From Pseudomonadota bacterium (GTDB lineage: Bacteria; Pseudomonadota; Alphaproteobacteria; Rhizobiales; Hyphomicrobiaceae), in NCBI GenBank assembly GCA_018242255.1, contig JAFECH010000354.1:1-39890 (forward strand): 39,890 nt of DNA. Direction: 5' to 3'. Made by a program: the position numbers and the translations under genes. The notes beneath the pieces are model-generated. The model was not told where the DNA came from and did not search any database. It saw only the letters and a program-made list of their open reading frames with translations. Below are positions 16,654 to 32,771 of the stretch, piece by piece. Within the stretch, counting starts at the first letter, position 1, and each line of letters opens with the position of its first letter.

Positions 16654-16732
16654 GCGTACTAGCAGCGTGTACGAGAGAGAGAAAAATTCGAACGCCAAGC
16701 TACTGAAAAATAAAAATAATAATTGTTGGCTG
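16654..16732 (+). repeat. Left flanking direct repeat (candidate attL)
   Basis: A 79-bp sequence matching 32693-32771 at 70 positions without gaps. Longest identical blocks include TACTAGCAGCGTGTAC near its start and AAGCTACTGAAAAATAA in the middle. It starts with two units of a 13-bp repeat (GCGTACTAGCAGC then GTGTACGAGAGAG). The second half is AT-rich. The following bases (GGGGGACTAGGACC) vaguely recall a tRNA 3' end on the minus strand, but no tRNA can be folded. Confidence 0.7.
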
Positions 16733-16804
16733 GGGGACTAGGACCCTTAGCGGTGGAAAGCTAAGTCCATACAACCATTGAATTTTCTCGGTAAATACTG
16801 GGGC

Positions 16805-16843
16805 GTGTGCTAGAAGCGTGTACTAGCAGCGTGTACTAGAGCC
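16805..16843 (+). repeat. Three tandem 13-bp repeats upstream of the integrase
   Basis: The units are GTGTGCTAGAAGC (16805-16817), GTGTACTAGCAGC (16818-16830) and GTGTACTAGAGCC (16831-16843), ending 11 bp before the integrase start codon. Bases 16818-16841 are identical (24/24) to 32693-32716 at the opposite end of the element. Candidate functions are integrase arm-binding sites, the real crossover site, or an operator for the integrase promoter. Confidence 0.75.
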
Positions 16844-16854
16844 TGTGGATAACT

Positions 16855-18591
16855 GTGGCCGATACCCGGTATTTAAAGCGCCGACGCGAGGGCTGGTATT
16901 TCCAAATGGCCGTGCCTCGCGCGGTCCGCGACGCCTACGGTTCGGCCGTCATTTCGAGCACGCTCAACACCCGAGATTTGACCGTTGCGCAGCATCGGCG
17001 CTGGGCCAAGCTCATTGAGGCCCAGGATGCTCTGAGGCGCGTGGTCGGCCCGGAAACCCATGCCATCGGTGGACCTGCGAGCCCCGTGCTCACGCAAATC
17101 GATGGCCACGCCCAATCGGTCTATCGAGCGGCGCTCGCAGATATGGAATTCGAGGCCGAGTGCGGGAAGCGGGCTTTTGCGGCGCCGGCCGAAGATGAGG
17201 TCGCCAACCCTGCCGCGGCAGAAATCGCGGGCCTATGGATCGTCGCAGCAGACCTCGCCGAAGCGATAGAGCTAGACGATTTCCAGTCGGTAGCAGCCAC
17301 CCTCGGCCCGTTGTCGCAAAGCTCGGCGTTCGAGCCCGGTTCGGATGCCTACCGGATGCTTGGCCAATCGCTCTTGAAGGCCCAGCTTGCTGCGGTCCAG
17401 GGCAGAATGGCAGCCCTTGCCGGTGAGCCGACAGAACATCCGCCCTCGTTCGTGCCGACCGGGTATGTGGACCCGGTGTCGCTGAAACCGGCGCGCGGAC
17501 CAAAGCGCAAGTCATCCGATGGCCTCACGTTCTCGGAAGCGGCGGCAAACTTTATCGAAGAAATGCAGCGCGACCCTGCAGCGAAAATGACGGCGCAGAC
17601 GCAAGGCCAGCATGAAGCGGCGTTTCGGCTCTTCATGGATTTTGTAAATGATGCGCCGCTTTTGGATATCGACCGGGCAACAGCAAGCGCGTTCGTGGCA
17701 GCTATCGCGCGGCTACATCCTCATTGGGGACGGTCCGCCAAATCGAAAGACTTGTCGCTCGCCCAGCTCTTGGAGAAGTACGGCCAAGGTGATGAGCAGC
17801 TATCGAATAAGACCCTAAATCGCATCATCGGTTCGCTGTCTGGCGTCTTCAAGCATGCACGCAAGCGCGGTCACTTCGATGGCAACAATCCGTTCTCAGA
17901 GCAGAGCAGACCGAAGGCGCGCAAAGGTTCAACTGAATGGTTGCCGTTCACCGATGCCGAGCTGAATAAGCTTTTCGCCTCCGATCTTTTCCGCTGCGAA
18001 ATGAAAGAGCGGCTGAAGCCGAACGCGCACACAATTGAAACCGCGTTGCGCTGGGTGCCATTGATCGGCTTGTTCAGCGGTATGCGCCTAGGCGAGATTT
18101 GCAGTCTCGGGACCGATGACATCCGCTGCGAAGACGGCATCCATTTTTTCAACGTCTGCGAGGATGCGGAAGAGGGCAAGCGCGTGAAGACCGCGGCAGC
18201 CGTCCGCCGCATCCCGGTGCATTCCGAGCTGATCAAATGCGGACTGCTGAAATACGTTGATGCACTGCCCGAGGGCCAACTGTTCCCCGCCCTTACGCCG
18301 GGTGGCCCGGACGACAAACTAAGCTGGGTGCCGACGCAGCACTTCACGCGGCTAAGGCGTTCGCTGGGCCTCACGCGGCCACGCCTGTCTTTTCATTCCC
18401 TGCGGAAGAACATGGCCACAGCGCTCGACCGTGCGCGCGTTACGCAGGCCGATATTGCCGCGATCCTTGGCCACGACCGCGGCTTTACGCTTTCGGTCTA
18501 CGCGCCGCTCGGTCTGGAGCTTGCCGCGCTCCAGTCGATCGTTGAGAAAGCCCGCTTCGAAGCGCTGAAGCTTGATCACCTGCACACCTAG
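16855..18591 (+). CDS. int: Tyrosine site-specific integrase
   Basis: 578 residues from a GTG at 16855, 11 bp after the 13-bp repeats; no ATG lies upstream in frame. The N-terminus (TRYLKRRREGWYFQMAVPRAVRDAYG) has the DUF6538-like arm-binding look common in alphaproteobacterial phage integrases. There is a central SAM-like core-binding domain around residues 225-350. The catalytic domain carries R411 (GMRLGEI), H514 and R517 (HSLRK), H540 (LGHDRG) and the nucleophile Y549 (SVYAP). It would catalyse integration and excision of the element. Its location just inside the left repeat supports that role. Confidence 0.93.
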   Translation: MADTRYLKRRREGWYFQMAVPRAVRDAYGSAVISSTLNTRDLTVAQHRRWAKLIEAQDALRRVVGPETHAIGGPASPVLTQIDGHAQSVYRAALADMEFEAECGKRAFAAPAEDEVANPAAAEIAGLWIVAADLAEAIELDDFQSVAATLGPLSQSSAFEPGSDAYRMLGQSLLKAQLAAVQGRMAALAGEPTEHPPSFVPTGYVDPVSLKPARGPKRKSSDGLTFSEAAANFIEEMQRDPAAKMTAQTQGQHEAAFRLFMDFVNDAPLLDIDRATASAFVAAIARLHPHWGRSAKSKDLSLAQLLEKYGQGDEQLSNKTLNRIIGSLSGVFKHARKRGHFDGNNPFSEQSRPKARKGSTEWLPFTDAELNKLFASDLFRCEMKERLKPNAHTIETALRWVPLIGLFSGMRLGEICSLGTDDIRCEDGIHFFNVCEDAEEGKRVKTAAAVRRIPVHSELIKCGLLKYVDALPEGQLFPALTPGGPDDKLSWVPTQHFTRLRRSLGLTRPRLSFHSLRKNMATALDRARVTQADIAAILGHDRGFTLSVYAPLGLELAALQSIVEKARFEALKLDHLHT

Positions 18592-18759
18592 CGGCTGTGC
18601 CATGACGCCGCGAATTGCGGCTTTATTTGCCCGTAATTGCTGATTTATATCTCCCGTAATTAAAGCCGAATTGGCCAATTCAATTCCATAATTAAATAAA
18701 AGATTGAAATAAGCCATATCCTCCTATATGCAATTCTAATTTGCACCGGAGGGAAATAA
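18592..18759. promoter_or_regulatory. AT-rich regulatory region with a 14-bp palindrome
   Basis: Between the integrase and the next gene lie GAATTGGCCAATTC (18668-18681), a perfect palindrome, and an inverted repeat CGGCTTTA/TAAAGCCG on either side of 18630-18660. The latter could form a hairpin behind the integrase gene, but without a U-run. The 3' part is AT-rich and ends with the ribosome binding site CGGAGGGA before the ATG at 18760. It probably holds the promoter and operator of the small-gene block. Confidence 0.45.
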
Positions 18760-18999
18760 ATGCCCCGCACCCAATTCCTGAGACTAGGCGTCATTGCGCG
18801 CCTTAGCGGCCTCACCTACCACGCGTGCCGATACCGGGCGCGGCAAGAGCACTGGGGCTACCGGAGCAAGAGCGGCCGGTCACGCTACTATTCGGTGACT
18901 GATGCCGCCTCATCGTTCGGCGCGCAGTGGACCGATGACGACATTGCCGGCGCGCTTCAGCCCCGCAAAATTCATGGCGCCCTTGAGGTGTCCCCATGA
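18760..18999 (+). CDS. Small DNA-binding protein with Mu-type winged-helix features
   Basis: 79 residues with a good ribosome binding site (GGAGGGA). The middle (about residues 8-48) shows an IARLSGLTYHACRYRARQ segment followed by W-x-Y-R and a YYSVTDA strand. This resembles the winged helix of phage Mu-type repressor/transposase N-termini. By position, next to the integrase and starting an overlapping gene block, it could be an excisionase or a regulator. Neither role is proven. It overlaps the next gene by an ATGA junction. Confidence 0.6.
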   Translation: MPRTQFLRLGVIARLSGLTYHACRYRARQEHWGYRSKSGRSRYYSVTDAASSFGAQWTDDDIAGALQPRKIHGALEVSP

Positions 19000-19655
19000 G
19001 CATCTTGCACCTCATCGGCGGTAAGGAAACCGCAGCCGATAAATTGGAAAACCAGGCTCTAGTGGCCGATGCGCGAGCGCAAGCGCTTGAAGCGGAAATG
19101 GACGCCTGCACAAATGGCGATAGTGCCGATGATGTTGAGCGCTATGTAAAGCTGGAGGCTGAGAAGAAGTTCGCTCTGGCCAAGGCGCGAAAGCTCCGGA
19201 AAGACGCGCAAGCCGCTCGCGACAAGGATATTGCCGACGCACGCGAGCGTGAAACGCGCGAGCTTCAGAAGCGAAAAAACCGGATCATCAAAAAGACGGC
19301 TGAACGTGTCGCGCTCGCCTCGGAAGTTGCTGTCCATGCTAGCCGTCTAGCCGATACGATCGAGCGGCTGCATCGGCTCAACGTCGATATTGCTACTCAG
19401 GCCGGTAGCCTTCTGGATCGCGAGACGCGCGCCGCCGCGCTCCTGGACCGCTCGTCCTACCGCAACGCCGTGGCCAGCATCCTGCGTAGCGCTGGGTACC
19501 AGCCGGCCGATGGCGTCCACTGTGGCGTCCCGTTCAAAGAAGCGGCGCTCTATTCCCCGCCGAGCCGCCTCACCGCTGAAGAAATTTTCGAGACGGCCAA
19601 TCGGAAAATTGGTGGCCAGCTCATGCCTCCCGAGGTGCAACATGCTGCGGAATGA
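18996..19655 (+). CDS. Hypothetical coiled-coil protein
   Basis: 219 residues, not recognised. Residues about 12-150 are charged and alpha-helical with heptad-like spacing (a long run of Ala, Glu, Lys, Arg and Leu), so an extended coiled coil is likely. The C-terminal 60 residues contain a GYQPADGVHCGVPF segment and look globular. There is no signal peptide or membrane segment. It is coupled to the gene before it (ATGA) and overlaps the next by 14 bp. A structural or scaffold role is possible but unsupported. Confidence 0.7.
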   Translation: MSILHLIGGKETAADKLENQALVADARAQALEAEMDACTNGDSADDVERYVKLEAEKKFALAKARKLRKDAQAARDKDIADARERETRELQKRKNRIIKKTAERVALASEVAVHASRLADTIERLHRLNVDIATQAGSLLDRETRAAALLDRSSYRNAVASILRSAGYQPADGVHCGVPFKEAALYSPPSRLTAEEIFETANRKIGGQLMPPEVQHAAE

Positions 19656-19875
19656 TGTTGATTATGGGCATCCCGCGCTCAATGAGCTGGCGACATTGAG
19701 CCCTGCTGAACGCGGCCATTACATCCTTTTGGCCTTGGAGAACTTGGCGCGCGGCTCCAATGCGGGCCTCGCAACCTGGGCCAAGGTTCTACTCATCGAA
19801 ACTGCCCGCAGCAGTGAAAGCTTTGCGATCGAGGCATCCGCCGCGCTCGCGCGGACCAATCGCGCCTTGCATTGA
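19642..19875 (+). CDS. Hypothetical small protein
   Basis: 77 residues starting at the ATG at 19642, inside the end of the coiled-coil gene; GAGGTG about 8 bases upstream serves as ribosome binding site. The sequence is mostly helical and mildly acidic, with LSPAERGHYILLALENLARG near the N-terminus. No known domain is recognised. It overlaps the gene before it and is followed by another gene 14 bp later, so it belongs to a translationally coupled set. Confidence 0.6.
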   Translation: MLRNDVDYGHPALNELATLSPAERGHYILLALENLARGSNAGLATWAKVLLIETARSSESFAIEASAALARTNRALH

Positions 19876-19889
19876 AGGATTGAAAAAAC

Positions 19890-20516
19890 ATGGCTGATGA
19901 ACCAACCATCACTGAGGCTGATGCTGCTAACGTCGATAGCGCCATAGCGGTTCGGCTCGGTGCGCGAGACGAGTACCGCAACAATCCCGTTGGGTTGAAT
20001 GCCGCCATCGAAGCTGAGAAAGCCGCTTGGCGTGCGCAGTACGGTTACACCGCGCCCGCGCCTTTGACGCCCGAGCAGAAGCTTCAGCAGCGCGCCGGCA
20101 TCAATTACGACCCGAGCCAATACTATGTGACCGTGCCGCCGCATCTTCGCGAGCTGCCCGATGGCGGCACCAATGCGCTCGGCGCGCTGAGAGAGGCCAC
20201 GGCCAAGATGGGCATGAGCGCAAAAATGGGCGGTGAGACTTTCATTGAACTTGTTGCGTCGATCGGTGCGCAAATCAGGGCCATGAGCCGCGATGCGCAG
20301 AAGCAGCACTTCGACGCGCAAGAGAACGCCTGCGAGCGCCTGTTCAAATCGCCGGAAGGATACAAGGCGGCACAGGCTGAAGCTGCGAAACTGCTGCGCA
20401 GTATCGGCACCGACTTCGGAAACGATTTGGCCAATTCCAGAAGCGTGCTCACGTCACCGCAAGTGCTGTCCATGCTCGTGGGGCATGCGCGACTGCTGAA
20501 GGCTACACGCAAATAA
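19890..20516 (+). CDS. Hypothetical protein
   Basis: 208 residues, not recognised. The N-terminal half is acidic and includes a proline-rich hinge (TAPAPLTPEQKLQQR, about residues 52-66) and a segment YYVTVPPHLRELPDGG. The C-terminal half is helical, rich in Ala, Arg, Gln and Lys. There are no membrane segments and no catalytic motif. It ends a run of four closely spaced genes and is followed at once by a strong hairpin, so it is probably the last gene of that transcript. Confidence 0.7.
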   Translation: MADEPTITEADAANVDSAIAVRLGARDEYRNNPVGLNAAIEAEKAAWRAQYGYTAPAPLTPEQKLQQRAGINYDPSQYYVTVPPHLRELPDGGTNALGALREATAKMGMSAKMGGETFIELVASIGAQIRAMSRDAQKQHFDAQENACERLFKSPEGYKAAQAEAAKLLRSIGTDFGNDLANSRSVLTSPQVLSMLVGHARLLKATRK

Positions 20517-20518
20517 AA

Positions 20519-20547
20519 ACAGCGGCCCGGTTGCAGCCGGCCGCTGT
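20519..20547. terminator. Strong hairpin after the small-gene block
   Basis: A perfect 9-bp stem (ACAGCGGCC with GGCCGCTGT, 11-nt loop) starts 2 bases after the preceding stop codon. There is no T-run on the plus strand, but the minus strand has GTTTTTATTT behind the stem, so intrinsic termination may be stronger for leftward transcription. It separates two gene groups on the same strand. Confidence 0.55.
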
Positions 20548-20614
20548 CAAGAATTCGGACTATCGTTAGTTTCCAACCCGGCCTGCCAGGGCCATTTATT
20601 GAGGTTTTTATGCG

Positions 20615-20971
20615 ATGTCAGAAGTATCAAATTATCAGCCTGCGGGCAATCCCCTAATTGGGGCGTTCGGATATAGCCGGGCCAAAGTTCCGGCCGGTTG
20701 GCTCAATCATTTAGAGCGGTTTATTAGGATTGAACGGGAATTGGCCCCGGACACGTTTCTGGTGGCAGAACTGTGCCCATTTTCAGACCGTGTTTATTTC
20801 CGCCGTATATGCAAGCTGGCGGACCTTCGCAATTGCCGGTTTTATTCGAGCCTGGACGAAATGCAGGCCGCTTTCAAATTCGATCATGAGCGCAACGCCC
20901 GCGAAGTCATGCGGCGCCATCGGCATCGCTTGGCTGAGAACTTCCGCGCCAACGAAGGGGCCTTCATATGA
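20615..20971 (+). CDS. Hypothetical protein
   Basis: 118 residues, not recognised. The first part includes GNPLIGAFGYSRAKVPAGW. The C-terminal half is basic and helical (EVMRRHRHRLAENFRANEG). A GAGG element lies about 10 bases before the ATG. It overlaps the following gene by ATGA, so the two are co-translated. There is no membrane segment. The arginine and histidine-rich tail would fit nucleic-acid contact, but that is a guess. Confidence 0.55.
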   Translation: MSEVSNYQPAGNPLIGAFGYSRAKVPAGWLNHLERFIRIERELAPDTFLVAELCPFSDRVYFRRICKLADLRNCRFYSSLDEMQAAFKFDHERNAREVMRRHRHRLAENFRANEGAFI

Positions 20972-21150
20972 GCTACGATGAACCTAGGCATCTTGAAAAC
21001 CGGACTGAAGCCCTCCGGCGGGAGCTTATTGCACATCTGGACGTTGCGCCGAAAGAGGAGCGGCCACGTCTTCGCGCAATGATCGCGCGGCTAAATGTTA
21101 TGCTGGACGAAATAGTCGAAGGAGGTTCGATTCCGGATCGATACAAATAA
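20968..21150 (+). CDS. Hypothetical small helical protein
   Basis: 60 residues, coupled to the preceding gene by an ATGA overlap. Composition is strongly helical and charged, with a TEALRRELIAHLDVAPKEE segment and a LRAMIARLNVMLDEI amphipathic helix, suggesting a dimerising helical hairpin. No family is recognised. It lies just before the leader of the replication gene. Confidence 0.5.
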   Translation: MSYDEPRHLENRTEALRRELIAHLDVAPKEERPRLRAMIARLNVMLDEIVEGGSIPDRYK

Positions 21151-21174
21151 CCGGCATTCGTGATATGCAATTAG

Positions 21175-21225
21175 AAAGGCCCATCGCAGCGAACGATGAG
21201 CCTTTAAATCAAACCTCTGAGAGGG
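21175..21225 (+). promoter_or_regulatory. Leader of the replication gene: hairpin plus 16-bp recurrent motif
   Basis: A hairpin at 21175-21205 pairs AAAGGC-C-CATCG with CGATG-A-GCCTTT (one mismatch, 7-nt loop). Immediately after it, CAAACCTCTGAGAGGG at 21210-21225 is the exact reverse complement of a 16-bp motif found twice near 25.4 kb. This lies 45 bp before the replication gene start, so it may be an operator or RNA control element for replication. The inner part (CCTCT-G-AGAGG) is itself palindromic. Confidence 0.55.
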
Positions 21226-21270
21226 AGATAAAACCGGGGCCGAAATCCCCAATTGGAGAAAGTGAATGCA

Positions 21271-23268
21271 ATGGCATATATAAATAATTCGGCCAATAAG
21301 GGCAAGAGCCGATTTGTTAGCGCCCTGCACCAGACCGCCCACGAATATGCGGCGAACGGCATCCCGGTTTTCATCTGCCACCCGGAATCGAAGGCACCAG
21401 CCACCGAGCACGGCTATAAGGACGCGACAACCGACCTTGATCAGATCGCCGCTTGGTTCGCTCGGTGCCCAAGCTACAACATCGCTATCTCACCTGAGCA
21501 TGCCAAGTGGAGCGTTGTCGATGTGGAGCGCGCGGGCCTGGACGCATGGCAGGCAATTCAGGCTGAGCACGGCGCCGTTAAGACCTACAGCGTGGCAACA
21601 CCACACGGCGGGCGCCATTTCTACTTTTCTGGCTCATTGCCAAGCCGCGTGAGGCTGTGGAAGGGGCTCGCGATCGATACGCGGGGCAGGGGTGGCTACG
21701 TGCTCGTGCCGCCGTCTCGCGTCGTTTACGAGGACGGTTCAAGCGGCGTCTATGAAGTCGCGGACGATTGTGACGTCGCCGACGTGCCGCATTGGCTGAT
21801 CCAAGCCGCTGAGCGCCACGTCGCGGATGTGATCACGGCACCATCTGGTGCCGACCCGGACGACCCCGGCAACATCGACCGCATGGCCTCATATCTGAAG
21901 GGTTTGGCCAAACAGGGCATGGTGGCAATCGAGGGCGCGGGCGGCAACGATACAACATTCAAGCTCGCGGCCGAAATCCTGGATCAACTGAGGCCCGACA
22001 CAGCGTTCCGGCTGCTGCTCGAACATTGGAACCCGCGTTGTCAGCCGCCGTGGGATGTTGAGGATTTGGCCGTCATCGTGGGTAATGCGGTCAATTATAA
22101 ACAGAACGCCATTGGTGCCACGACCGTCGCGCGAGCATCCGATGTCTTCGCGGACGTGGTGGCCAAGTTTCCAAGCGACACGCCGCGGATGACCGGCGAA
22201 ATTATTCCGTTCGCAGCGCTCTTGAAACGTGACGTGCCGCCCGTCCAAGAGCTGGTGCCGGGGCTGATTGAGAAAGGCATCGTGACGTTTTTGGCCGGCC
22301 ATGGCGGAACCCACAAAAGCCGGACATCAGTCCATTGGGGTTTGAGCATCGCGGCCGGGAGGCCAATTTACGGTCGTGAAGTAGAACGGGCGTCGTTCGT
22401 CTGCATTTCGTGCGAAGACGGGATCGATGAGGTAACGCGCCGCGTGCAGGCGATGGCTCAACGGCTGGATTTGCCAATCGGTGACAATGCCTATTTGTGG
22501 GACCGGCGCGGGCTCGTCGCGCCGCTCGCTACCGTTTCCGATGGCGGGATCAAGCTTGAACCCTTTTGGGGCGAGCTCCAGGCGCGTCTCAAGTCGATCA
22601 GCGGCCATAAATTCATCGTGGTCGATAGCGCTTACAATGTCCTGAATTTCACCGGTGCCACAAAATCGAATGAAGGCGCGGTCAAAGCGGCCATTGAAAT
22701 CTTGGGCCAGCTTTGTGCCGAGACGGACAGCACCATGGTTGTCCTATGGCACCCGTCGCAAGCCGGGCAGGAGCGCGGAGACAATAGTGGCTGGTCTGTC
22801 GCCTGGCACAACGCGCCGCGCGCACGGCTCAGTCTGACCCGGGTGCCGGATACGGAAAGCGCCTTTGACCTGAAGGTGGAGAAGCGGAACAACGCGCCGC
22901 CGCAAAAATTGCCGCTCACACTGCGGTGGGATGATGGCGTGCTGTTGCCAATAACTGAGGTGGCGGCAACCGAGCGCAAGGCCCTGTTCAAGAATGCCTG
23001 CATCAACACCGCGTTGCAGGCGGCAGATGGAGGCTGTCCGATCCAGAAGCAAAGGCGGATTCAAGGTTGGATGTTCGACCAAATCGAGAAGGACGCCGGA
23101 TATCGACCGACCGAAAAGCAAGTGAAAGATGAGCTGGCGGCAGCCATCAGCACGGGAGAGCTTAGGTATATTGCAGCCCATGGGAAGCAGCAGGCAGGAT
23201 ATTTTGCGAAAGAGCGTGACCCATTTCTAATTAAAAATCGAATTCCAGAAGCCAAACATCCCGGTTGA
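21271..23268 (+). CDS. Bifunctional primase-polymerase with RecA-like helicase/ATPase domain (replication protein)
   Basis: 665 residues from the ATG at 21271, set by GGAGAAAG eight bases upstream. The N-terminal Prim-Pol domain (about 20-180) has GIPVF, KAP, GYKDATTD and a metal-binding D84-V-E86 where many relatives have DxD, plus GGRHFYF (H116) and an AIDTRGRGGYV segment (D136). The C-terminal RecA/RepA-like ATPase has Walker A GHGGTHKS (343-350) and Walker B KFIVVDS (near 450). Such proteins prime and unwind DNA for plasmid, phage or integrative-element replication. The gene ends inside an array of iterons, the expected place for its origin. Confidence 0.88.
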   Translation: MAYINNSANKGKSRFVSALHQTAHEYAANGIPVFICHPESKAPATEHGYKDATTDLDQIAAWFARCPSYNIAISPEHAKWSVVDVERAGLDAWQAIQAEHGAVKTYSVATPHGGRHFYFSGSLPSRVRLWKGLAIDTRGRGGYVLVPPSRVVYEDGSSGVYEVADDCDVADVPHWLIQAAERHVADVITAPSGADPDDPGNIDRMASYLKGLAKQGMVAIEGAGGNDTTFKLAAEILDQLRPDTAFRLLLEHWNPRCQPPWDVEDLAVIVGNAVNYKQNAIGATTVARASDVFADVVAKFPSDTPRMTGEIIPFAALLKRDVPPVQELVPGLIEKGIVTFLAGHGGTHKSRTSVHWGLSIAAGRPIYGREVERASFVCISCEDGIDEVTRRVQAMAQRLDLPIGDNAYLWDRRGLVAPLATVSDGGIKLEPFWGELQARLKSISGHKFIVVDSAYNVLNFTGATKSNEGAVKAAIEILGQLCAETDSTMVVLWHPSQAGQERGDNSGWSVAWHNAPRARLSLTRVPDTESAFDLKVEKRNNAPPQKLPLTLRWDDGVLLPITEVAATERKALFKNACINTALQAADGGCPIQKQRRIQGWMFDQIEKDAGYRPTEKQVKDELAAAISTGELRYIAAHGKQQAGYFAKERDPFLIKNRIPEAKHPG

Positions 23269-23339
23269 GACTTTGGTTGAAACCGGGTTGAAACCATTCA
23301 AATTGTGGCGTTGAAACCGGTTGAAACCCAGTTGAAACC
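23264..23339 (+). repeat. Iteron cluster, candidate replication origin
   Basis: The 9-mer GTTGAAACC occurs exactly at 23276, 23287, 23310, 23320 and 23331, and a variant GTTGAGACT sits at 23264. Start-to-start distances are 12, 11, 23, 10 and 11 bases, so the copies fall on about the same face of the helix with one or two turns skipped. The array begins in the last codons of the primase gene and continues into an AT-rich non-coding region. This is the layout of iteron-type plasmid origins beside a rep gene. Confidence 0.75.
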
Positions 23340-23643: not shown

Positions 23644-24210
23644 TTAGAGCATATCAACAACCTTGCGCTGCGCGTCCTCGTCGGTCTCGATATAGCGCTG
23701 GGTGGTATTCAGGTTTTCATGGCCCAGAAGCGCCTGGACATCCTTCAGGCTGCCACCCGCTATGACGATCTTCTTGGCCGCGTTCGTCGCGAAGCTACGG
23801 CGCCCCGAGTGCGAGCTGTAGCCGGTCCAGCCGAGCCGGCGCCGGTAGAAGTCCCGGAACCATACGGCTACGGCGTTCGGGGTCAGAGCTTTGCCCGGCG
23901 CGGCCTGGGTATTCACGAACACGGGGTCATTGGCCCCTGTATGCCCTTGCCGCGAGCGCCTGTAGGCTTCTAGGGCTTCCCACAGCTCACGGCTCATCGG
24001 AACGGTTCGCGGCTTGTTGCCCTTCGTGGTGGCCAGCAACAGCTTCCGCTCTTCAAGGTCCACGCGGCTCCACGTCAGCCCTGCAATCTCGACGGCCCGT
24101 AGCCCCGCCTTGGTCGATAGCAGCACCAAACACTTCTCCCGATCGCTCTTGCAGGCTGCGAGCGCCTGATTGAGCCGTGCATTGCTCACCGTCTCAGCTT
24201 GTTTCGCCAT
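23644..24210 (-). CDS. Minimal tyrosine recombinase (catalytic domain only)
   Basis: 188 residues from the ATG at 24210, with GGGGA upstream; in-frame starts further up exist, to 24288, so the start is uncertain. Catalytic residues of the phage integrase family are complete: R38 (KAGLRAVE), K63, H134 and R137 (HSGRRS), H164 (LGHENLNTTQRY) and Y173. The N-terminal arm- and core-binding domains of larger integrases are absent. Enzymes of this short type may resolve dimers or invert DNA. Its position beside the iterons suggests multimer resolution of a circular form, which is inference. Confidence 0.85.
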   Translation of the reverse strand: MAKQAETVSNARLNQALAACKSDREKCLVLLSTKAGLRAVEIAGLTWSRVDLEERKLLLATTKGNKPRTVPMSRELWEALEAYRRSRQGHTGANDPVFVNTQAAPGKALTPNAVAVWFRDFYRRRLGWTGYSSHSGRRSFATNAAKKIVIAGGSLKDVQALLGHENLNTTQRYIETDEDAQRKVVDML

Positions 24211-24673
24211 GTCACAGTCCCCAATAGTTCTCATAAAATAATGCAATCGCAACATAATGTGAGAAGTTTGGGCAATGGTCAAGCGCAATCGCCTTCATAA
24301 CTCCTGTATTTATTGGGCTTGCGGCCAACTTCTCACTTAATTGCTATTTGATGAGAAGTGGGTTCGGAGGGTCATCGGCCGTCCCGCTCGATCCAGGCCA
24401 TCGGCCGGCGATGGTCCTTACCTACAACTTGGCCCAGCAGACCGGGGTGCCACGGGGGCATACCCCCGAGAAATCGCCTTTCGATATTTCTTACATGGAT
24501 CGTCCCGCGCGCGCCGGCCGCCAAAATTACGGCGCCGTTAATTATTGTGGCAATTCCGACTTTGAAAATTGGCGCGGAATTAAATTGGAATTGGCCATAT
24601 ACCGCTCAATTGACAAAAACGGAATTGGTGGGACAATTGAGTAATTAGCGCCAACTCGAAAAGGACGACAGCA
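24211..24673. promoter_or_regulatory. Intergenic region with GAGAAGT repeats
   Basis: This region lies between the divergent recombinase and the paralog pair. GTGAGAAGTT (24259-24268) and AACTTCTCAC (24327-24336) form a perfect 10-bp inverted repeat 58 bp apart. ATGAGAAGTG (24351-24360) repeats the word again, and AGTTCTCAT occurs near 24225. These could be recombinase binding sites or an operator for its promoter. From about 24530 the sequence is AT-rich with GGAATTAAATTGGAATTGG. The frames at 24341-24648 have no ribosome binding site or recognisable product and are not called. Confidence 0.5.
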
Positions 24674-25617: not shown

Positions 25618-25947
25618 ATGCTTCGCAAGTCTTTCACTGCTGGCCTGGACCTCGACAACGCACAGCGTGCCGAGCATCCGATTATGCACGAATTGCGGCA
25701 GTGGATAGAGCGAAGGCTTTCCCATCGGCTCCTAGTCAATAGGCCGGTTTTGGTCCTTCAAGGCACGCAGGTGCAGTCCGGTCTACTTTGGGACCTCAGT
25801 GAAAGTGGTTTTGGCTTGAGTAGAGTTAGCGGCCTCGTCACAGGCGCAATCGTGTCTGCGACCACACATGACGGCGACGTGTTTGAGGGTCGGGTTGTTT
25901 GGATTGACGGTGGCCGCGCCGGCGTCTCCATGAACAGCCAAAGTTAG
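25618..25947 (+). CDS. Small PilZ-like protein
   Basis: 109 residues. The C-terminal ~65 residues have the PilZ beta-barrel pattern: a DLSESGFGL motif (the D-x-S-x-x-G of c-di-GMP binders) near residue 60 and a final GRVVWIDGGRAGVSM strand pair. The upstream RxxxR ligand motif is not clear (the place is held by VNRPVLVL), so c-di-GMP binding is uncertain. Alphaproteobacterial genomes carry many such single-domain proteins. The role in the element is unknown. Confidence 0.65.
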   Translation: MLRKSFTAGLDLDNAQRAEHPIMHELRQWIERRLSHRLLVNRPVLVLQGTQVQSGLLWDLSESGFGLSRVSGLVTGAIVSATTHDGDVFEGRVVWIDGGRAGVSMNSQS

Positions 25948-26405
25948 TATCAAAGACGAGCTTTTCCCGAACGACCCCGCGCCACTCGGTCCGATAAAGC
26001 GTATAGCGCCATTTTAGAAGTGTCTGAGAGGCGTGGGATATTTTCGTATGGTTTTGGGCATCGCCTCACGGACTGAGTTCGCCGCCAGCACGGCGTGAAG
26101 CGATGCGATTGCCTCTGTCACCGCCTCAATCAAACATCCGCGCGGCGAATTATTGTAGTCTCCATAGGCGTTGCGATCGCAGCGGCGGCCGAGCGCCAGC
26201 CGTCTTTCAATCTCGGATCGTGCAGCGTCCGAGGCTGCGGCTGCGGCGGACCGGGAGAGCCCCGGTGGACCGTAGCGGACGGACATCTATCATTGGCCAC
26301 CGGTCCGGCTTCCCCGCCTCGCGACTGCCACTGTCCGACTAACGCTCAACTCACAAACGGCGTCCGAGCCTTGATCAGCGTTCGATGCGGGCCCACATTT
26401 AGCCG
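25948..26405. other. Stretch without a confident gene
   Basis: 458 bp. A minus-strand frame at 26014-26286 (90 residues, Ala/Arg-rich, start ATG without a ribosome binding site) may be a gene, but nothing in it is recognised. A word CTGAGAGGCG near 26026 resembles half of the element's CTCTGAGAGG motif. No promoter or terminator is assigned. Confidence 0.35.
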
Positions 26406-26624
26406 ATGCAACTCATGAAATGCTACAAGTGCGGTGCGCACCCAGAAGTTTTGCGCGTTCCTGAAATGCTCGTTGTCGAAGTCGAGTGCTGGTGCGGCGC
26501 TTTCCGTTGGGCGCCGATCGAGCACGGTGACACGGACCGGGCGATCATGGACCTTGAAGTCGAGGCCACCAGCCTCTGGAACGCCGCGCAGGAAGCCTAT
26601 ACCGCAGATGTGCAACCTCTATAG
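26406..26624 (+). CDS. Small zinc-ribbon protein, Lar-like
   Basis: 72 residues (or 69 from the second ATG at 26415). It has CYKCGAHP near the N-terminus and CWCGAF about 20 residues later, a four-cysteine zinc ribbon, followed by a helix with ATSLWNAAQ. This is the plan of Lar/restriction-alleviation-like and related phage zinc-ribbon proteins. The end overlaps the SRAP gene by 17 bp in another frame, so the two are probably co-translated. The Lar link rests on pattern only. Confidence 0.5.
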   Translation: MQLMKCYKCGAHPEVLRVPEMLVVEVECWCGAFRWAPIEHGDTDRAIMDLEVEATSLWNAAQEAYTADVQPL

Positions 26625-27294
26625 TCTGACCCGTAACGTCGAAGCGATCCGCCGCCTCTTTCGTCTCGGCCATAATCGCGCGACAGAGGTCAAACCACAG
26701 TCTGCAATCTTTCCTGGCTATACAGCACCAGTGATACGCCGCGCTGAAGATGGCGAGCGTGAGCTTGTTCAGATGTCCTGGGGCTTCGTGCTCTTGCAGG
26801 ATGGCAAGGCACCTCGTCGCGTAACGAACGTGCGCGATGATAAAATTCGGACTTCGCGCTTTTGGAAACCGTCATTCGCGGCGAGGCGTTGTCTCGTGCC
26901 AGCATCGAGCTATTGCGAGCCTGACACTGCCAAGCCTGCGAAGTGGAATTGGTTCGCCGTCAACGGCGAGCATGAACGCGAGCTATTTGCCTTCCCCGGA
27001 ATCTGGCAGCGCTGGAAGGGCCCAATCAAAAAGGATGGCCCGACCGTCGAGATAGATGTCTACTCGTTCATGACGACGGCGCCGAACGCGCTGACCGACA
27101 GCATCAATCACGAACGCATGCCGGTCCTGCTCTCCACCGAAGCCGACTTTGAAACTTGGCTTAGTGGCACCCCCGAGGAAGCGTTCGCGCTTGCTCGCAG
27201 CTTTGATCCGAACGCTATGCGGATCGTCCAGAGCGGCAAAGACAAGGAAGACTTACTTGGGCGGCCGAGCGCGGAGCAACACAGCCTGCTTTAG
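26608..27294 (+). CDS. SRAP-domain protein (YedK/HMCES family abasic-site protein)
   Basis: 228 residues starting at the ATG at 26608, which places the catalytic cysteine at position 2 (MCNLYS) as the family requires. Other SRAP hallmarks are present: MSWGFV, RCLVPASSYCEPD with the active-site glutamate, FAFPGIW, and the histidine in DSINHERMPVLL. The family forms a thiazolidine crosslink to abasic sites in single-stranded DNA and protects them. Many mobile elements carry a copy. It follows a zinc-ribbon gene that it overlaps. Confidence 0.93.
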   Translation: MCNLYSLTRNVEAIRRLFRLGHNRATEVKPQSAIFPGYTAPVIRRAEDGERELVQMSWGFVLLQDGKAPRRVTNVRDDKIRTSRFWKPSFAARRCLVPASSYCEPDTAKPAKWNWFAVNGEHERELFAFPGIWQRWKGPIKKDGPTVEIDVYSFMTTAPNALTDSINHERMPVLLSTEADFETWLSGTPEEAFALARSFDPNAMRIVQSGKDKEDLLGRPSAEQHSLL

Positions 27295-27364
27295 CGCATC
27301 GAATGACTGGTCTCATCATCGAAGGTGGTACTCGCTTTAGTGCTGCAATCCACCTTCGATGCGC
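27294..27364 (+). promoter_or_regulatory. Nested inverted repeats after the SRAP gene
   Basis: Two alternative perfect pairings exist: ATCGAAGGTGG (27318-27328) with CCACCTTCGAT (27350-27360), an 11-bp stem with a 21-nt loop, and GCGCATCGAA (27294-27303) with TTCGATGCGC (27355-27364). The two share the right arm, so they are mutually exclusive. There is no U-run. It may be a factor-dependent terminator or an RNA element. Confidence 0.45.
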
Positions 27365-27963: not shown

Positions 27964-28494
27964 ATGCATTCGTCGGTGGCTCCAAATCTCGATGAGACAT
28001 ACGGGGCCGCGGCTGAGCCCCGGAAATTAGATGCCTGGGAAAAGAAAGGTAAGGTGCCGCGTAGCCTGTCTAACCTAGACGCCCAGAACGCATTGCTCCT
28101 GCTTGATCTTATGCAATTGGTGGAAAAAGGGCTTGGGGTGGTTAAGTATGTGTTCGCCGACCGTCCGATACTCTGGGTGGTTGACCGCGAAGGCAACATT
28201 TGGTTCGCCCTAGAGGAAACAGTCGATGCTGAAACGGGAGAGTTCACCTATCCTGACATTCGTCCTGATCCAGGAGTGACGTATGACCGGCTAGGCCATC
28301 CCGCTCTGATCGGCTGCGCCGTCGGAAGGATCGCTGGTGAGCTAAAATTTGATCCGGGACCACCGGGCCGATGGTATATAAATAATTTTTCTGGACGCTA
28401 CAGTCGTGGGAACAACCGAACTGAAGAACACCTTAACAACGTTGGTGCAGCATTCGCTAAGCTGGGTATAGAGGTGGCTGTTCAATTCTATTAG
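27964..28494 (+). CDS. Hypothetical protein
   Basis: 176 residues, not recognised. It is soluble and acidic. The C-terminal third reads RWYINNFSGRYSRG, then a HLNNVGAAFAKLGI segment, a pattern I associate with small immunity-type or effector-associated proteins; that association is weak. There is no good ribosome binding site before the ATG. It pairs with the following gene (29 bp apart, same strand). Confidence 0.6.
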   Translation: MHSSVAPNLDETYGAAAEPRKLDAWEKKGKVPRSLSNLDAQNALLLLDLMQLVEKGLGVVKYVFADRPILWVVDREGNIWFALEETVDAETGEFTYPDIRPDPGVTYDRLGHPALIGCAVGRIAGELKFDPGPPGRWYINNFSGRYSRGNNRTEEHLNNVGAAFAKLGIEVAVQFY

Positions 28495-28522
28495 TTAAAA
28501 ATCCCGTGAGTGAAGCAAAGCC

Positions 28523-28897
28523 ATGGAACCTTCAATTGATCAACTCCAGCGATTAACGCCTAGTCGCCTACTTGCGCTTCGGCAGAGCATCGAAGAGCCG
28601 GCACGACTGAGGGATTTGCTTGCTCAGGTTTGCCTGTACCTTCTCCGGATCCGTTCACCGAGAGCTTCTGACACTGATGATGTCTATAAGCTTCTGCTCC
28701 AATTAAAGAGTATAGGTTTGTGGGAGGAGGGGCGCGGGGACGCACTGATTTCAGTTTTTCGACAGGATTTCGCGGCGGACGTAATCGAAGTCGCAGAAGA
28801 CGTTTTGAATTCTCATGATCGGAATCCCGCCAAAGCGCAACTTGCTAGATCGGTCGCCTTGCTCCAGAGCATCAAAGCAAGGTTGAATGTTCGTTGA
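28523..28897 (+). CDS. Hypothetical helical protein
   Basis: 124 residues, predicted mostly alpha-helical and acidic, with no cysteines beyond one and no membrane segment. It begins MEPSIDQLQRLTPSRLLALRQ. No family is recognised. It follows the gene at 27964 on the same strand and converges with the minus-strand gene ending at 28915, leaving only 17 bp. Confidence 0.55.
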   Translation: MEPSIDQLQRLTPSRLLALRQSIEEPARLRDLLAQVCLYLLRIRSPRASDTDDVYKLLLQLKSIGLWEEGRGDALISVFRQDFAADVIEVAEDVLNSHDRNPAKAQLARSVALLQSIKARLNVR

Positions 28898-28914
28898 ACT
28901 TGCGTGCATCGCGA

Positions 28915-29883
28915 TCACTGACTTAGTAGCTTCACATTCACGAGCGCGGCATTCTTCGCGCGTCGGATTCCCGTAATTTCACAAATCAACTTCAGGCGCT
29001 CATGAAACTCGGTCGTATTGAGCGCAGCCATGCCCTTCGACGCACACCAACCCTGATACGCCTCGAACAGATCGTCTGCTGCTAACCGCTTGCCTTCAGC
29101 GCGTGATAGGCGTTCCGACATAAACGGCGCGACGCCACCTAGCTTGGTAGGTGGAAGCATCTCAGCTCGCGCAGCGACAACCCTAGGACTAGTTAGACCT
29201 AGGTTTCGTTGATTCGGATGCCCTAGGCCGATAGCCGTGCAGAGCACACTCAACAACGAGAGCGTCAGTGGAAGCACCAGTGGCTCGTAGAGCGTAACCT
29301 GATCCTCGCTAAGCGGGAGCATTGCTACAAGTCGCGACGTGAGCGCGTTTGTCTTGTTTGCTCCGACATTTCCCGCTTTCGCGCGCGCATCATCTAACTT
29401 GGCCTGAGCTTGAGCTTCGCGGGACTCTAGGCTTTCGCAGTGTGGGCCACGCCCTGTGCTGCACTCTGCGGAAGCCGCGGCGCTCGCTTTGTCCAACGCT
29501 ACCTTCGCATCAGCGATGGCGTCATCCGCCAGCTGAACGCGTCTTGACTGAGCCGTCACCGGCATGTTTGCGGCGTCCATCGCTGAGCCGCTTCGCTCGA
29601 TAGCCGCTAGCGCAATCGTGCTGAGCGCCAATGGCAGAATGCAGAAGGCGAAGAATCCGGCTAAACGCTGGGCATCTTTCCAAGCCTTCTCACCAATCCA
29701 CGGCAGGAACCCGGAGAGCATGGTGCACGCTGCGCCTGCTAGAACGAGATAAGAAAAGCCGCCATCACGCGACAGCAAGTACATGACCGAGCCGTAGGTC
29801 TCGATGCCGACGAGGCACAGGCCGGCTGCAAGGATCGGGGTACGCCAACTCAACTCAGGCACGTTTGCCCCCGAGCTTATCAA
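28915..29883 (-). CDS. Membrane protein with central coiled coil and C-terminal helical domain
   Basis: Up to 322 residues from a TTG at 29883; a GTG at 29862, seven codons later with GGGGG upstream, is as likely. Both overlap the end of the preceding par-type gene. There are three hydrophobic helices near residues 14-34, 40-62 and 70-95, then an Ala-rich coiled coil (110-175), a further hydrophobic segment (200-225), and a soluble C-terminal domain. The C-terminal domain (LFEAYQGWCASKG, then TTEFHERLKLICEITGI) resembles the small winged-helix module at the end of phage/plasmid primases. It probably belongs to the parA transcript. The function is unknown. Confidence 0.7.
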   Translation of the reverse strand: MISSGANVPELSWRTPILAAGLCLVGIETYGSVMYLLSRDGGFSYLVLAGAACTMLSGFLPWIGEKAWKDAQRLAGFFAFCILPLALSTIALAAIERSGSAMDAANMPVTAQSRRVQLADDAIADAKVALDKASAAASAECSTGRGPHCESLESREAQAQAKLDDARAKAGNVGANKTNALTSRLVAMLPLSEDQVTLYEPLVLPLTLSLLSVLCTAIGLGHPNQRNLGLTSPRVVAARAEMLPPTKLGGVAPFMSERLSRAEGKRLAADDLFEAYQGWCASKGMAALNTTEFHERLKLICEITGIRRAKNAALVNVKLLSQ

Positions 29884-30202
29884 GTTCCACGGCTAGGGCG
29901 CGTTCAACTATATCAACGATGCGTTCGCCGTGCTCGCGGCTTGCCGCCACCAGACGCGCCTTCAGCGTTTCCTCGATCGTGACGTTGAGCTGAGCCGTCC
30001 GTGCGCTCGTGCGGCGCTTCACGCGGCCATCCGGTGCAATCGATGCGCTTTCGAGCGCCGCACGCCCTTTGAGCGTCCGGGGATTGTGAGCAGGGCGCGC
30101 ACGGTTGGACTTCTGCGGCGCCGGTTTATGGCCACGATCGCCAAGCCGCAAGAGGCTGGCCATGATGCGGCTATCGTCATCCATTTCCGCTTCGGGTTTC
30201 AT
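29855..30202 (-). CDS. Small basic protein, likely DNA-binding partner of ParA
   Basis: 115 residues from the ATG at 30202, fixed by AAGGAGA upstream. The first 75 residues are basic and disordered (RPAHNPRTLKGRAA). The last 45 have a ribbon-helix-helix appearance: strand LNVTIEETLKARLVAA, then a REHGERIVDIVERALAVEL helix. Small RHH proteins of this kind (ParG/CopG-like) bind centromere repeats and stimulate a ParA ATPase. It starts 4 bp after parA. It probably binds the ACCTAGGT repeats in front of parA, by inference. Confidence 0.65.
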   Translation of the reverse strand: MKPEAEMDDDSRIMASLLRLGDRGHKPAPQKSNRARPAHNPRTLKGRAALESASIAPDGRVKRRTSARTAQLNVTIEETLKARLVAASREHGERIVDIVERALAVELDKLGGKRA

Positions 30203-30206
30203 TGGC

Positions 30207-30857
30207 CTATCTCCTTGCCTTTGAACGCGAAGCAATGCGCTTCTTGATGGCTTGCCACAGCGCGTCGATTTCCTCGCCGCAATCCTTGGCCTGCGCTTTG
30301 TTGGAAACCTCGGGGCCAGTTTTGCCGAGCGCGATTGCGTTGGCGTAGGCCGCGCGCTGGCGAATGATTTGATCGAGCACCGGGCCGTTCTGGCCTAGGC
30401 CCTTCACCATGCCGTTGTAGCTCGCGCCCTTGGTATCGATGACGGCGTTGAGCAGAAAGACGAACGGCTTGTTGAAGTCTTCGCAGGCCTGCACGGCCGG
30501 CGCGATCGCGTCCAGGTCGAAAGCCGAGACGCGAACCGGGATCACCACTAGGTCTGCTTCGGCAATGATGAGGGCTAGGCGTTGCGCGTCGCCCGGCGCC
30601 GTGTCGATGAAAACCCAATCTGTGCCTTGGCTTTCGAGGTCACCTAGGTCTAGCTGAATGTCGCTGACGGCAAACACTTCCGGCGCCCATAGCCCGTTCT
30701 CGGTCCGCATCAGCGACCACATGCCGATGCTCTGCTGGGGATCGCCGTCCAGGATTACGACCTTGGCCTTTTCCTTCATTGCGGCCACGGCAAGGGCGGT
30801 CGCGACCGTGCTCTTGCCCGTACCGCCCTTGGTTGCGGCTAAAACGATTGTTTTCAT
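30207..30857 (-). CDS. parA: ParA-family partition ATPase
   Basis: 216 residues, the short ParA form without an N-terminal helix-turn-helix. It has a deviant Walker A KGGTGKST (residues 10-17), an LDGDPQQS switch and a Walker B region DWVFIDTAPG. Short ParAs position plasmids together with a small DNA-binding partner, here the next gene, and do not bind their own operator themselves. The upstream tandem palindromes would be the centromere and operator. Confidence 0.9.
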   Translation of the reverse strand: MKTIVLAATKGGTGKSTVATALAVAAMKEKAKVVILDGDPQQSIGMWSLMRTENGLWAPEVFAVSDIQLDLGDLESQGTDWVFIDTAPGDAQRLALIIAEADLVVIPVRVSAFDLDAIAPAVQACEDFNKPFVFLLNAVIDTKGASYNGMVKGLGQNGPVLDQIIRQRAAYANAIALGKTGPEVSNKAQAKDCGEEIDALWQAIKKRIASRSKARR

Positions 30858-30873
30858 AGGTGAAACCCTCGTG

Positions 30874-30942
30874 ACCTAGGTCTACCTAGGTTAGCACACA
30901 ACGCCTATGCCTAGCTAGACCTAGGTTAATCTAGGCCTAGGT
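30874..30942. repeat. Tandem ACCTAGGT palindromes, candidate centromere/operator
   Basis: The 8-bp palindrome ACCTAGGT occurs at 30874, 30884 and 30919, with one-mismatch versions GCCTAGCT at 30909, ATCTAGGC at 30929 and GCCTAGGT at 30935. The main spacing is 10 bp, one helical turn, as expected for ribbon-helix-helix arrays. It covers the promoter of parA, 17 bp from the start codon. Two more exact copies lie inside genes of the same transcript (29197 and 30642). Confidence 0.75.
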
Positions 30943-30962
30943 AGTGAAGGGTCCGTAAAGGT

Positions 30963-32648
30963 CTATTGGGGTATTCCTTTGCGGGTGGGGTCGGTCAGCC
31001 ATTTTTTAATAGAGCCGACGAAATCCCAAACATCGCCCTTCGCAGGGTAAACGTAGGGTTCTTTTTTGGGGTCGCTTCCCATCGCACCAAAGATCGCAGC
31101 GCGCCAGCCACCATCCTTGGATGGGAGCGACAGATGCTTTAGCCAGGATTCCACTTCCCCTTTTCGCACAATAAATGAGCCATACTTCTCGAGATCGTCA
31201 CAAAAGTTATTCGCGGCTTCCCTTTGGTCGCCTTTAAGAAGCTCAATGCCCCCGTTGCGCTTAAAATATATCTCTGGTTTCGCGGCTTCTTTTGGGGCGG
31301 CCTTGACCAAATTCTCGAGAACGTTCTGTCTAAGTTTATGACTAGCTTCATGCTGGCCCGAAGGTAAACCCGATCCCTCTAGTAGCCGAGTCCACTTTGT
31401 TTTGCCCTCGCGCACAACATCGAGATCAAAAACGCCCACGGCGGGAATTCCCAGTTTACGAAGTGGGCCTACGATAGCCGGAATTGTGTCCTTGTTATCG
31501 GCATTGAGAAACAGAGCATGAGGTATCGCGCGGGGATCACCCGCCGCTAGAAGACGCTCATTCACTTCTTGATAAAATGCTCTATCGGTATCGCCCTCAG
31601 TCACGACCACGTTGTTGAAGAACAGGCCCGAAAGCACCCCGACTGAACGTAACATCGGATCATTCATCATCTGAACGAGATCATCGTTCGGAAGCAGCCT
31701 AGCCGTACCTACCCCCGCGTCATGAGTAAGGCGAACAATATTGACGACGGCACCGGATTGAATCGCTCCCATCACGAACTCCGAGCTATGCGTCGAAACG
31801 AAAACAAATTTATCTTCGCTGTGGGCGGCCGTCGCGAGCGACTTGCCCAACGTTCGCGCAAGAGAAGGGTGCAGGAACGCCTCCGGTTCATCGATCAGGA
31901 TTACTTTCGGATCGCCAGCGAACACCTGAAGAAGAATGCCAGAGAATGCTTTTACGCCATCGCTGACCTCTTCGAGGGGTCTTGCGGCCTTCATCCAATC
32001 AATATTCTCTTCCTCGAAGGAGCGCTCTTTCGAGGGAGGCGTTGAGCCGAACCGGACTGACAGAATGTTGCCTACAGTCGCATCGATGGCAGGGTACAAC
32101 TCAAATGCGTTGTGAACTTCGGTGCGCCATTTAGTTCGCATCGGATCATTCATGAAGATCTTAGCGAGCGGCGCCACTGGCGCCTTCAAATCGCCGGGAG
32201 GAACTTGGTTCAAGAGTCCGATTCTTGTGGCACCATCCAGCCACAAAGTGAGCCCCGATAAATAATAATACGCGTAGAGACTTAAGTGTTGATTGGGCTG
32301 TTTGCGCCCAATAAGATAAGTCTGATTGTCGACGACGCTGTGACCGCCATTTAGCCAAATGGACGATTGCCCCGGCTGAAGAGCTTCACCGGGGCTAATC
32401 GCGCGCTGAATCTTCTTGAGATCGATTTGCGCAGTTTGTTCGTCCACCCCCTCGAATTGAAGCGTGTCTAAAATGCGCGTATGCGGGCCATTGCTGCCAT
32501 CCTTACAGAGCGCATTTATTTCGCGAAGTAGGAGGCTTTTCTCGGAGTTATTAGGGCCTACAAAAATCGTAACGGAAGGCTGCAGAGAAAAACTGAGCGG
32601 TGCCTTTCCTCGGGAAGACGCCAACTTCAATTTGATCGCGGTCAACAT
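30963..32648 (-). CDS. OLD-like AAA ATPase/TOPRIM nuclease
   Basis: 561 residues from the ATG at 32648 (a TTG two codons upstream is possible). The N-terminal ABC-type ATPase has a Walker A place reading GPNNSEKS (31-38), where the last glycine is replaced by glutamate, a signature-like SDGVKAF, Walker B KVILIDEPEAFLHPS and the H-loop STHSSEF. The C-terminal TOPRIM domain starts with VVVTEGDTDRAFY and has a DLD. This is the plan of OLD-family and other phage-defence nucleases. It stands alone at the right end of the element, next to the flanking repeat, and is the likely cargo. The Glu in Walker A raises doubt about ATP hydrolysis. Confidence 0.85.
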   Translation of the reverse strand: MLTAIKLKLASSRGKAPLSFSLQPSVTIFVGPNNSEKSLLLREINALCKDGSNGPHTRILDTLQFEGVDEQTAQIDLKKIQRAISPGEALQPGQSSIWLNGGHSVVDNQTYLIGRKQPNQHLSLYAYYYLSGLTLWLDGATRIGLLNQVPPGDLKAPVAPLAKIFMNDPMRTKWRTEVHNAFELYPAIDATVGNILSVRFGSTPPSKERSFEEENIDWMKAARPLEEVSDGVKAFSGILLQVFAGDPKVILIDEPEAFLHPSLARTLGKSLATAAHSEDKFVFVSTHSSEFVMGAIQSGAVVNIVRLTHDAGVGTARLLPNDDLVQMMNDPMLRSVGVLSGLFFNNVVVTEGDTDRAFYQEVNERLLAAGDPRAIPHALFLNADNKDTIPAIVGPLRKLGIPAVGVFDLDVVREGKTKWTRLLEGSGLPSGQHEASHKLRQNVLENLVKAAPKEAAKPEIYFKRNGGIELLKGDQREAANNFCDDLEKYGSFIVRKGEVESWLKHLSLPSKDGGWRAAIFGAMGSDPKKEPYVYPAKGDVWDFVGSIKKWLTDPTRKGIPQ

Positions 32649-32692
32649 GCGCAATGAACCCGATTGTCGATATGATCGGCGGAAAGGAGCGT

Positions 32693-32771
32693 GTGTACTA
32701 GCAGCGTGTACTAGAGGGAGGAAAATTCAAACGCTAAGCTACTGAAAAATAACAAAAATAATTGCTGGCTG
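32693..32771 (+). repeat. Right flanking direct repeat (candidate attR)
   Basis: The counterpart of 16654-16732 (70/79 identical). Its first 24 bases are also identical to 16818-16841 beside the integrase and consist of two units of the 13-bp repeat (GTGTACTAGCAGC then GTGTACTAGAGGG). It lies 45 bp outside the start of the OLD-like gene. Right of it the sequence changes to that of the flanking chromosome. Confidence 0.7.

Follow-up and report, generated by a model that had tools for sequence, protein, structure and literature searches.

A probable integrated plasmid-like island with a partition operon in a Hyphomicrobiaceae genome

The DNA analysed here (the window) is a stretch of 39,890 nucleotides from contig JAFECH010000354.1 of a Hyphomicrobiaceae bacterium (assembly GCA_018242255.1). 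A segment of ~16 kb within it is probably an integrated mobile element, namely an integrating plasmid-like island, a variant of the cryptic integrated elements that bears partition genes. This reading builds on gene families, repeats, integrase arm-type sites and related elements at tRNA genes, all taken from sequence. The segment encodes a tyrosine integrase, a Prim-Pol/AAA replicase with iterons, a second minimal recombinase, ParA with palindromic repeats and an OLD-like gene, as the original prediction had listed them, and Pfam, PHROGs, PADLOC and repeat counts agree with that list. Its proposal that an integrative element combines plasmid-type replication with partition genes is likewise well supported by six relatives at tRNA genes, among which G157 carries homologues of the integrase, the replicase and the ParA operon (compared genomes and loci carry G and L numbers).

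Attachment sites, integrase and replication genes

The tyrosine integrase (16855-18591, + strand) bears an N-terminal DUF6538 (Pfam 2.3e-11 and 4.9e-10), shares 41% identity with its G157 homologue and most likely uses the 3′ end of tRNA-Gln. The left core of 17 nt (16727-16743) equals the 3′ end of tRNA-Gln(CTG) on the complement strand, matches both the attL copy of G157 and the tRNA-Gln at 100%, and is present once in its own assembly with up to two mismatches allowed. Arm-type sites adjoin the integrase gene at 16805-16841 and a further one lies at the right end (32693-32716), so that a 24-nt repeat inside each element end is identical between 16818-16841 and 32693-32716. The motif TGTACnnnCAGCnTGTAC is common to the arm repeats of the window and G157 elements, and among the 205 loci compared it occurred exactly only at the ends of these two; because it was derived from these same two elements, its exclusivity carries no independent weight. 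Left of the left core, at 16655, the motif recurs a third time with one mismatch.

The segment had been described as bounded by 79-bp direct repeats. The direct repeat is real (77 nt, 90% identity; 16656-16732 and 32695-32771), and BLAST found no third copy in the 404 contigs of the genome, but its copies are not simple boundaries, as each combines an integrase arm-type site with a core. The left part of the first copy (16655-16724) consists of an arm-type site with one mismatch and a spacer; the right core, GCTGGCTG, occupies 32764-32771, and similarity to two gene cassettes of G007 begins at 32764. A plain duplication of the attachment site was thus ruled out by the arm-type site inside the repeat and by the G007 cassettes, which match from the core rightwards only. 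The left arm copy probably represents the right end or arm of a lost tandem neighbour element, and the element proper therefore probably spans ~16725-32771. ARAGORN detected no tRNA inside the window, Rfam gave no match there at the gathering score, and the G+C content of the segment did not differ clearly from that of its flanks.

The replicase (21253-23268, + strand) joins Prim-Pol and AAA_25 domains (Pfam 5.3e-30 for PF09250 and 4.5e-27). A candidate origin follows it directly, composed of five exact copies of the iteron GTTGAAACC (23276-23339), compared with a mean of 0.26 expected in the whole window. When repeated 9-mers were scored in sliding windows, the stretch after the replicase was the highest of the element in G003 (0/335 windows higher) and L107 (0/329) and moderate in the window element (10/315), while low scores were obtained there in G019 (8/331 higher), G157 (24/307), G134 (20/240) and G215 (15/234). 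Facing the replicase is a minimal Xer-like tyrosine recombinase of 214 aa (23644-24288, − strand; Phage_integrase Pfam 4.3e-27), which also matches the XerC model at 2.4e-26, under that model's cut-off. The two genes are convergent, and adjacent or at most ~3 kb apart, in the window and in all six delimited relatives; the facing gene belongs to the serine resolvase family in the relatives and is a minimal tyrosine recombinase in the window. Judging from this arrangement, it may serve multimer resolution.

Partition operon and CCTAGG palindromes

The ParA protein (30207-30857, − strand) has 216 aa, the size of type Ib, and matches phrog_164 (1.1e-35) as well as ParF in the PDB (4dzz, 3.4e-8, residues 1-183). 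It lacks an N-terminal helix-turn-helix, with the ATPase match starting at residue 1. The adjoining gene (29855-30235, − strand) encodes a probable ribbon-helix-helix (RHH) partition protein of 126 aa, with an Arc-like match to phrog_31093 (0.0061) and 48% identity to the G157 protein; its weak model shows two C-terminal helices (pLDDT 57.7 overall, 77-79 at residues 91-120). Iteration also pulled an antisense open reading frame (ORF) over a methylase gene (33424-33948) into the RHH profile, which was discarded as a false match. The third gene of the operon, TMwh (28915-29883, − strand), combines an N-terminal part that appears hydrophobic by eye with a C-terminal domain like those of P4/D5-type primases (Pfam Pox_D5 2.5e-5; primase C-termini in PHROGs and NCBIfam). 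Homologues were found in G157, G016, G003 and G014, and no plasmid record matched at 1e-3; TMwh may be a partition factor bound to the membrane.

Four CCTAGG palindromes upstream of parA (30875-30941) form a candidate centromere, and further copies lie at 29182-29227, 30394 and 30643. The window holds 11 copies versus 3.57 expected under an order-1 model, nine of which fall inside 29182-30941 (1.8 kb over parA and TMwh), a clustering matched in 0 of 20000 uniform placements, which is a crude null model. In G157, one of the eight copies in 30 kb lies upstream of parA and three lie within TMwh.

Iterated profiles over 27 loci placed ParA in five and TMwh in five, with both genes flanking one small gene in four (the window, G157, G003 and G016). 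The operon lies at the end opposite to the integrase in the window and G157, and adjoins the integrase in G003. Relatives of ParA were found in 12 plasmid records at 1e-15 versus four phage records at 1e-10, and six of the 10 plasmid records listed are <60 kb. The block is also present in phages, since the G016 locus is prophage-like with a terminase. ParF-ParG of TP228 is a type Ib plasmid partition system. The window operon resembles it in the small ParA, the probable RHH gene directly downstream and the repeats upstream, and differs in TMwh, an additional gene whose product has a hydrophobic part and ends in a primase-type domain.

Relatives at tRNA genes, cargo and genomic surroundings

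The six delimited relatives share parts of the backbone and lie between tRNA-end repeats at four kinds of tRNA gene. The nearest, G157 (same family, other genus), is 15.7 kb long and sits at an intact tRNA-Gln; it has homologues of the integrase, g2, g4, Prim-Pol and ParA-RHH-TMwh of the window. The intact tRNA-Gln marks one of its ends and a copy of the final 17 nt of this tRNA the other, and a 22-nt repeat lies inside both ends. The five further relatives (12-17 kb) are located at tRNA Pro, Pro, Glu, Arg and Arg. The first two come from two species of one genus, with tRNA-Pro end repeats of 65 bp (95%) in G003 and of 62 bp (100%) with the intact tRNA adjoining in G019; the G003 element is part of an array, because the intact tRNA-Pro lies ~100 kb further on. 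L107, from a metagenome-assembled genome of the Hyphomicrobiales, has a 48-bp repeat of tRNA-Glu, and G134 and G215 have 51-bp perfect tRNA-Arg repeats each. In six loci tested for repeats of at least 25 nt, G016 gave one of 27 nt ending at the contig end, and G157 and G331 gave none.

G134 and G215, different species of one genus, carry related elements at the same tRNA-Arg. Their aligned segments are 95.6, 91.4, 95.2, 79.7 (237 bp) and 97.5% identical, and the right flanks 88.8% across 3.2 kb; the inner part forms an inverted block, ~4.6 kb of the middle is unaligned except for the 237 bp, and the left flanks are not collinear. Regarding distribution, with the own genome included in the counts of the family, the replicase matched in 15 of 60 relatives at E 0.001, a three-row replicase profile in 11 of 397 genomes of the order at 1e-30, the g4 profile in two of 397 at 0.001 and the integrase in two of 150 genomes at 1e-60.

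The genes g2 to g5 lie between the integrase and the replicase. The g2 protein (18760-18999, + strand) has no Pfam match, and its iterated profile over the 27 loci links the window to G003, G019, G157, G134, G215 and, weakly, G035d; from the gene position its role may be guessed as excisionase-like. The g3 product (18996-19655, + strand) appears coiled-coil-like by eye and is named by position only, and the iterated profiles linked it to no g3 in these loci, including those of G003, G019 and G157. The all-helical g4 (19890-20516, + strand; model mean pLDDT 71.8) has no assigned function; its profile links the window to G157, G003 and L107, and no viral structure resembled its model at E 0.001 or better. 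Likenesses of g3 and g4 in G134, G215 and L106 were seen by eye and left uncounted. The g5 gene (20615-20971, + strand) has a homologue in G019 that adjoins the Prim-Pol gene there (phmmer 6e-13).

The OLD-like ATPase/TOPRIM protein (30963-32654, − strand; PADLOC Old 9.3e-22, Pfam OLD-like_TOPRIM 1.8e-5) is a probable, putative anti-phage defence cargo. Cargo genes of the relatives comprise SIR2, HerA and an AbiEi-like protein in G157 (PADLOC, Pfam), PDC-S65 with a SIR2 domain in G134, PDC-M36A and an SBF-family transporter in G019, and in L107 weak matches only, for one of two proteins; no match was obtained for the single protein tested in each of G003 and G215. Defence-gene matches thus exist in three of the six delimited relatives, whose genes were scanned in part, and in the window (Old). 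Further genes of the segment encode a small PilZ-domain protein (25618-25947, + strand; Pfam 1.9e-6), an SRAP (SOS response-associated peptidase family) protein (26434-27294, + strand; Pfam 1.3e-33), which excludes the latter as a recombinase candidate, and two proteins matching no family in Pfam, PHROGs or PADLOC (27964-28494 and 28523-28897, both + strand).

The right core abuts a separate methylase-DUF5681-terminase-large-subunit-like cassette (32764-36805), in which the methylase combines ParB_N and N6_N4_Mtase domains and the terminase-like gene lies at 35315-36805 (phrog_38, 1.1e-69). G007 carries the cassette twice (L068 and L070) at 86-88% identity over the cassette genes, the match starting exactly at 32764, and GCTGGCTGTGCTGGCAGTC is common to the three cassette copies whose left ends were read. 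The cassette genes (33305-36805) were ruled out as part of the element, as tblastn found no element protein in the 40 kb around each G007 copy. More distant cassette-like sets occur in G003, G006, G011, G012 and G016, and the cassette may be a mobile unit with a terminase and without capsid genes. Left of the element, 16398-16529 (+ strand) is what is left of a DNA methylase gene of the cassette type, from its 3′ part (79% nucleotide identity to 19253-19386 of L081 in G016, the end of its methylase ORF). With the cassette abutting the right core and the probable end of a lost related element on the left, the element stands in an array rather than in an intact tRNA-Gln.

Several observations concern other elements and repeats. 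Window positions 7429-7938 match 15271-15789 of L070 at 87% nucleotide identity, the end of a gene that by eye is large serine-recombinase-like and lies beside a G007 cassette copy; on this reading, a recombinase remnant lies left of the kdp genes. A tandem CATGAC repeat array occupies 37280-37340. L161 (G011:C7:258001-278000) has two ORFs that by eye are large serine-recombinase-like, one adjoining tRNA-Gln and the other a partial tRNA-Gln copy, which makes it another element kind at the same tRNA. By eye, the ~17-kb island L100 (G010:C1:423001-443000), which runs from tRNA-Pro to a partial copy of it, contains restriction-like genes, one resolvase-like gene and a different replicase, on account of which it was left out of the family. 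By eye, L082 (G046) has a Cas9-looking ORF of 1102 aa (15390-18698) and, after it, a Cas1-like ORF, with a distant Prim-Pol relative ~3 kb away.

Weighing the readings and their biological meaning

Under the favoured reading of an integrating plasmid-like island, the integrase would excise and integrate the element at the core with arm sites on both sides, the Prim-Pol/AAA replicase would copy the circle, starting at the iterons directly behind its gene, and multimers would be resolved by the minimal Xer-like recombinase. ParA and its RHH partner would segregate the copies via the CCTAGG sites, and the OLD-like gene would be carried as defence cargo. No transfer apparatus of its own was detected, and the island would therefore move with a helper or by general transfer. 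More broadly, we tentatively propose a possible lineage of integrating plasmids in the Hyphomicrobiales and their kin, with sites in tRNA genes, iteron Prim-Pol replication facing a resolution recombinase, a three-gene partition operon in which TMwh would tie DNA to the membrane via a winged helix, exchangeable anti-phage cargo and no transfer genes.

A number of observations weigh against this reading. The uninterrupted homologous site suggested as a check was looked for around the kdp flank in the 22 genomes of the genus and not found, and no empty site was found either in 12 congeneric genomes searched with the left flank of G134 or in 22 genomes searched with the surroundings of the G019 tRNA-Pro, where ~1.5 kb past each tRNA was covered. 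The right core retains just TGGCTG (6 nt) of the tRNA end, and the common-type tRNA-Gln is missing from the own assembly; this 74-nt tRNA is complete and identical in 19 of the 22 genomes of the genus, reduced to 23 nt in G005 and missing in G014. Its 3′ flanks at 20 loci (one of 83 nt), mostly dissimilar with two alike groups, G003/G006/G011 and G015/G016, speak neither for nor against the reading. The ParA operon is present in just three of the seven delimited elements and has no CCTAGG near parA in G003, and the RHH assignment is weak, since besides the Arc-like match a PDB search up to E 1 gave nothing and the model is poor. Gene order is variable, with g3-g4 inverted in G157 and the ParA operon beside the integrase in G003; repeat density after the replicase is strong in G003 and L107 alone; and the Walker A motif of the OLD-like protein reads GPNNSEKS by eye, which may impair the protein.

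P4-like, PICI and PICMI satellites are small integrated islands, some with a primase, and constitute hotspots of defence genes. The main rival, which we consider rather improbable, is that the segment is such a phage satellite, induced and packaged by a helper phage, with the Prim-Pol amplifying it after induction and the defence gene acting against competing phages. The size of 12-17 kb, the tRNA sites, the Prim-Pol and the exchangeable cargo with defence matches would suit a satellite, as would an IMG/VR contig that carries a 42% identical Prim-Pol relative and the tail-like ORFs (by eye) between the G003 element and the intact tRNA-Pro. However, unlike those satellites, the window element has partition genes and no packaging, capsid or satellite regulator genes were found in it, although minimal satellites may lack such genes; the integrase had no IMG/VR match in a search that finds close relatives only. 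To our knowledge, a partition operon is not expected in a satellite.

It is unlikely that the segment decayed from a prophage or phage-plasmid, retaining integrase, replication and partition after the structural genes were lost. In favour of such decay, L092 of G016 shows the block ParA - 95 aa - TMwh - integrase and, beside a terminase and a DnaT_2 gene, a relative of Prim-Pol. The relatives at several tRNAs are nevertheless similar in size and gene content, with no virion genes recognised by eye, and a stable kind of element therefore fits better than repeated decay. In the segment itself, the predicted absence of conjugation and virion modules holds for the ORFs scanned (no conjugation, relaxase or virion family in 22 by Pfam or 17 by PHROGs), the terminase-like gene lying beyond the repeat in the separate cassette. 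With no relaxase family matched in these 22 ORFs, it is also very improbable that the segment is an integrative mobilizable element which a conjugative helper transfers from an oriT that went undetected, even though its size and tRNA sites would allow it and partition is reported for SXT/R391 integrative and conjugative elements (PMC4489591). Finally, we give hardly any credence to the view that there is no single element and that the repeat is an array leftover enclosing genes that arrived separately, for while remnants and the cassette lie on both sides and the left arm copy suggests a second one, the core and arm beside the integrase and the arm at the other end reproduce the layout of G157.

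The plasmid-like island that we favour is not new as a kind, whereas to the original prediction its assembly looked new. Kazlauskas et al. 2018 (PMC5862659) distinguish three classes, one of them being cryptic integrated elements. These have AEP primases and direct repeats, often occupy tRNA genes and lack both conjugation and phage genes; precise borders are given for 25 of 31 genomes, 14 of them in tRNA genes. The window element is like these in its AEP primase, integrase, direct repeats and lack of conjugation and phage genes, and is classed with them by these features rather than by assignment to the PrimPol-PV1 supergroup. It differs in its partition genes and iterons, words that are absent from the main text of that paper. 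SXT/R391 elements are also integrated with partition genes (srpMRC) and, as PMC4489591 reports, actively partition their plasmid-like form, but they are conjugative with an actin-type (type II) system, whereas the window element has the ParA type and no conjugation genes were found. The lineage is not described in the available parts of PMC11389934 or PMC11476347, and the term DUF6538 was not found in the literature searched. Within that literature, islands of the general kind are known and this lineage appears undescribed; the partition operon and the probable defence gene are variant features of an otherwise known element kind.

For many genomic islands, no means of movement or persistence is known. 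One that has an apparently full plasmid maintenance set and lacks transfer genes raises the questions of whether it leads a long extrachromosomal life and what carries it between cells, both of which are testable. The elements of G134 and G215, which occupy one tRNA in two species and have different inner parts, suggest that such islands may be vehicles of anti-phage genes.

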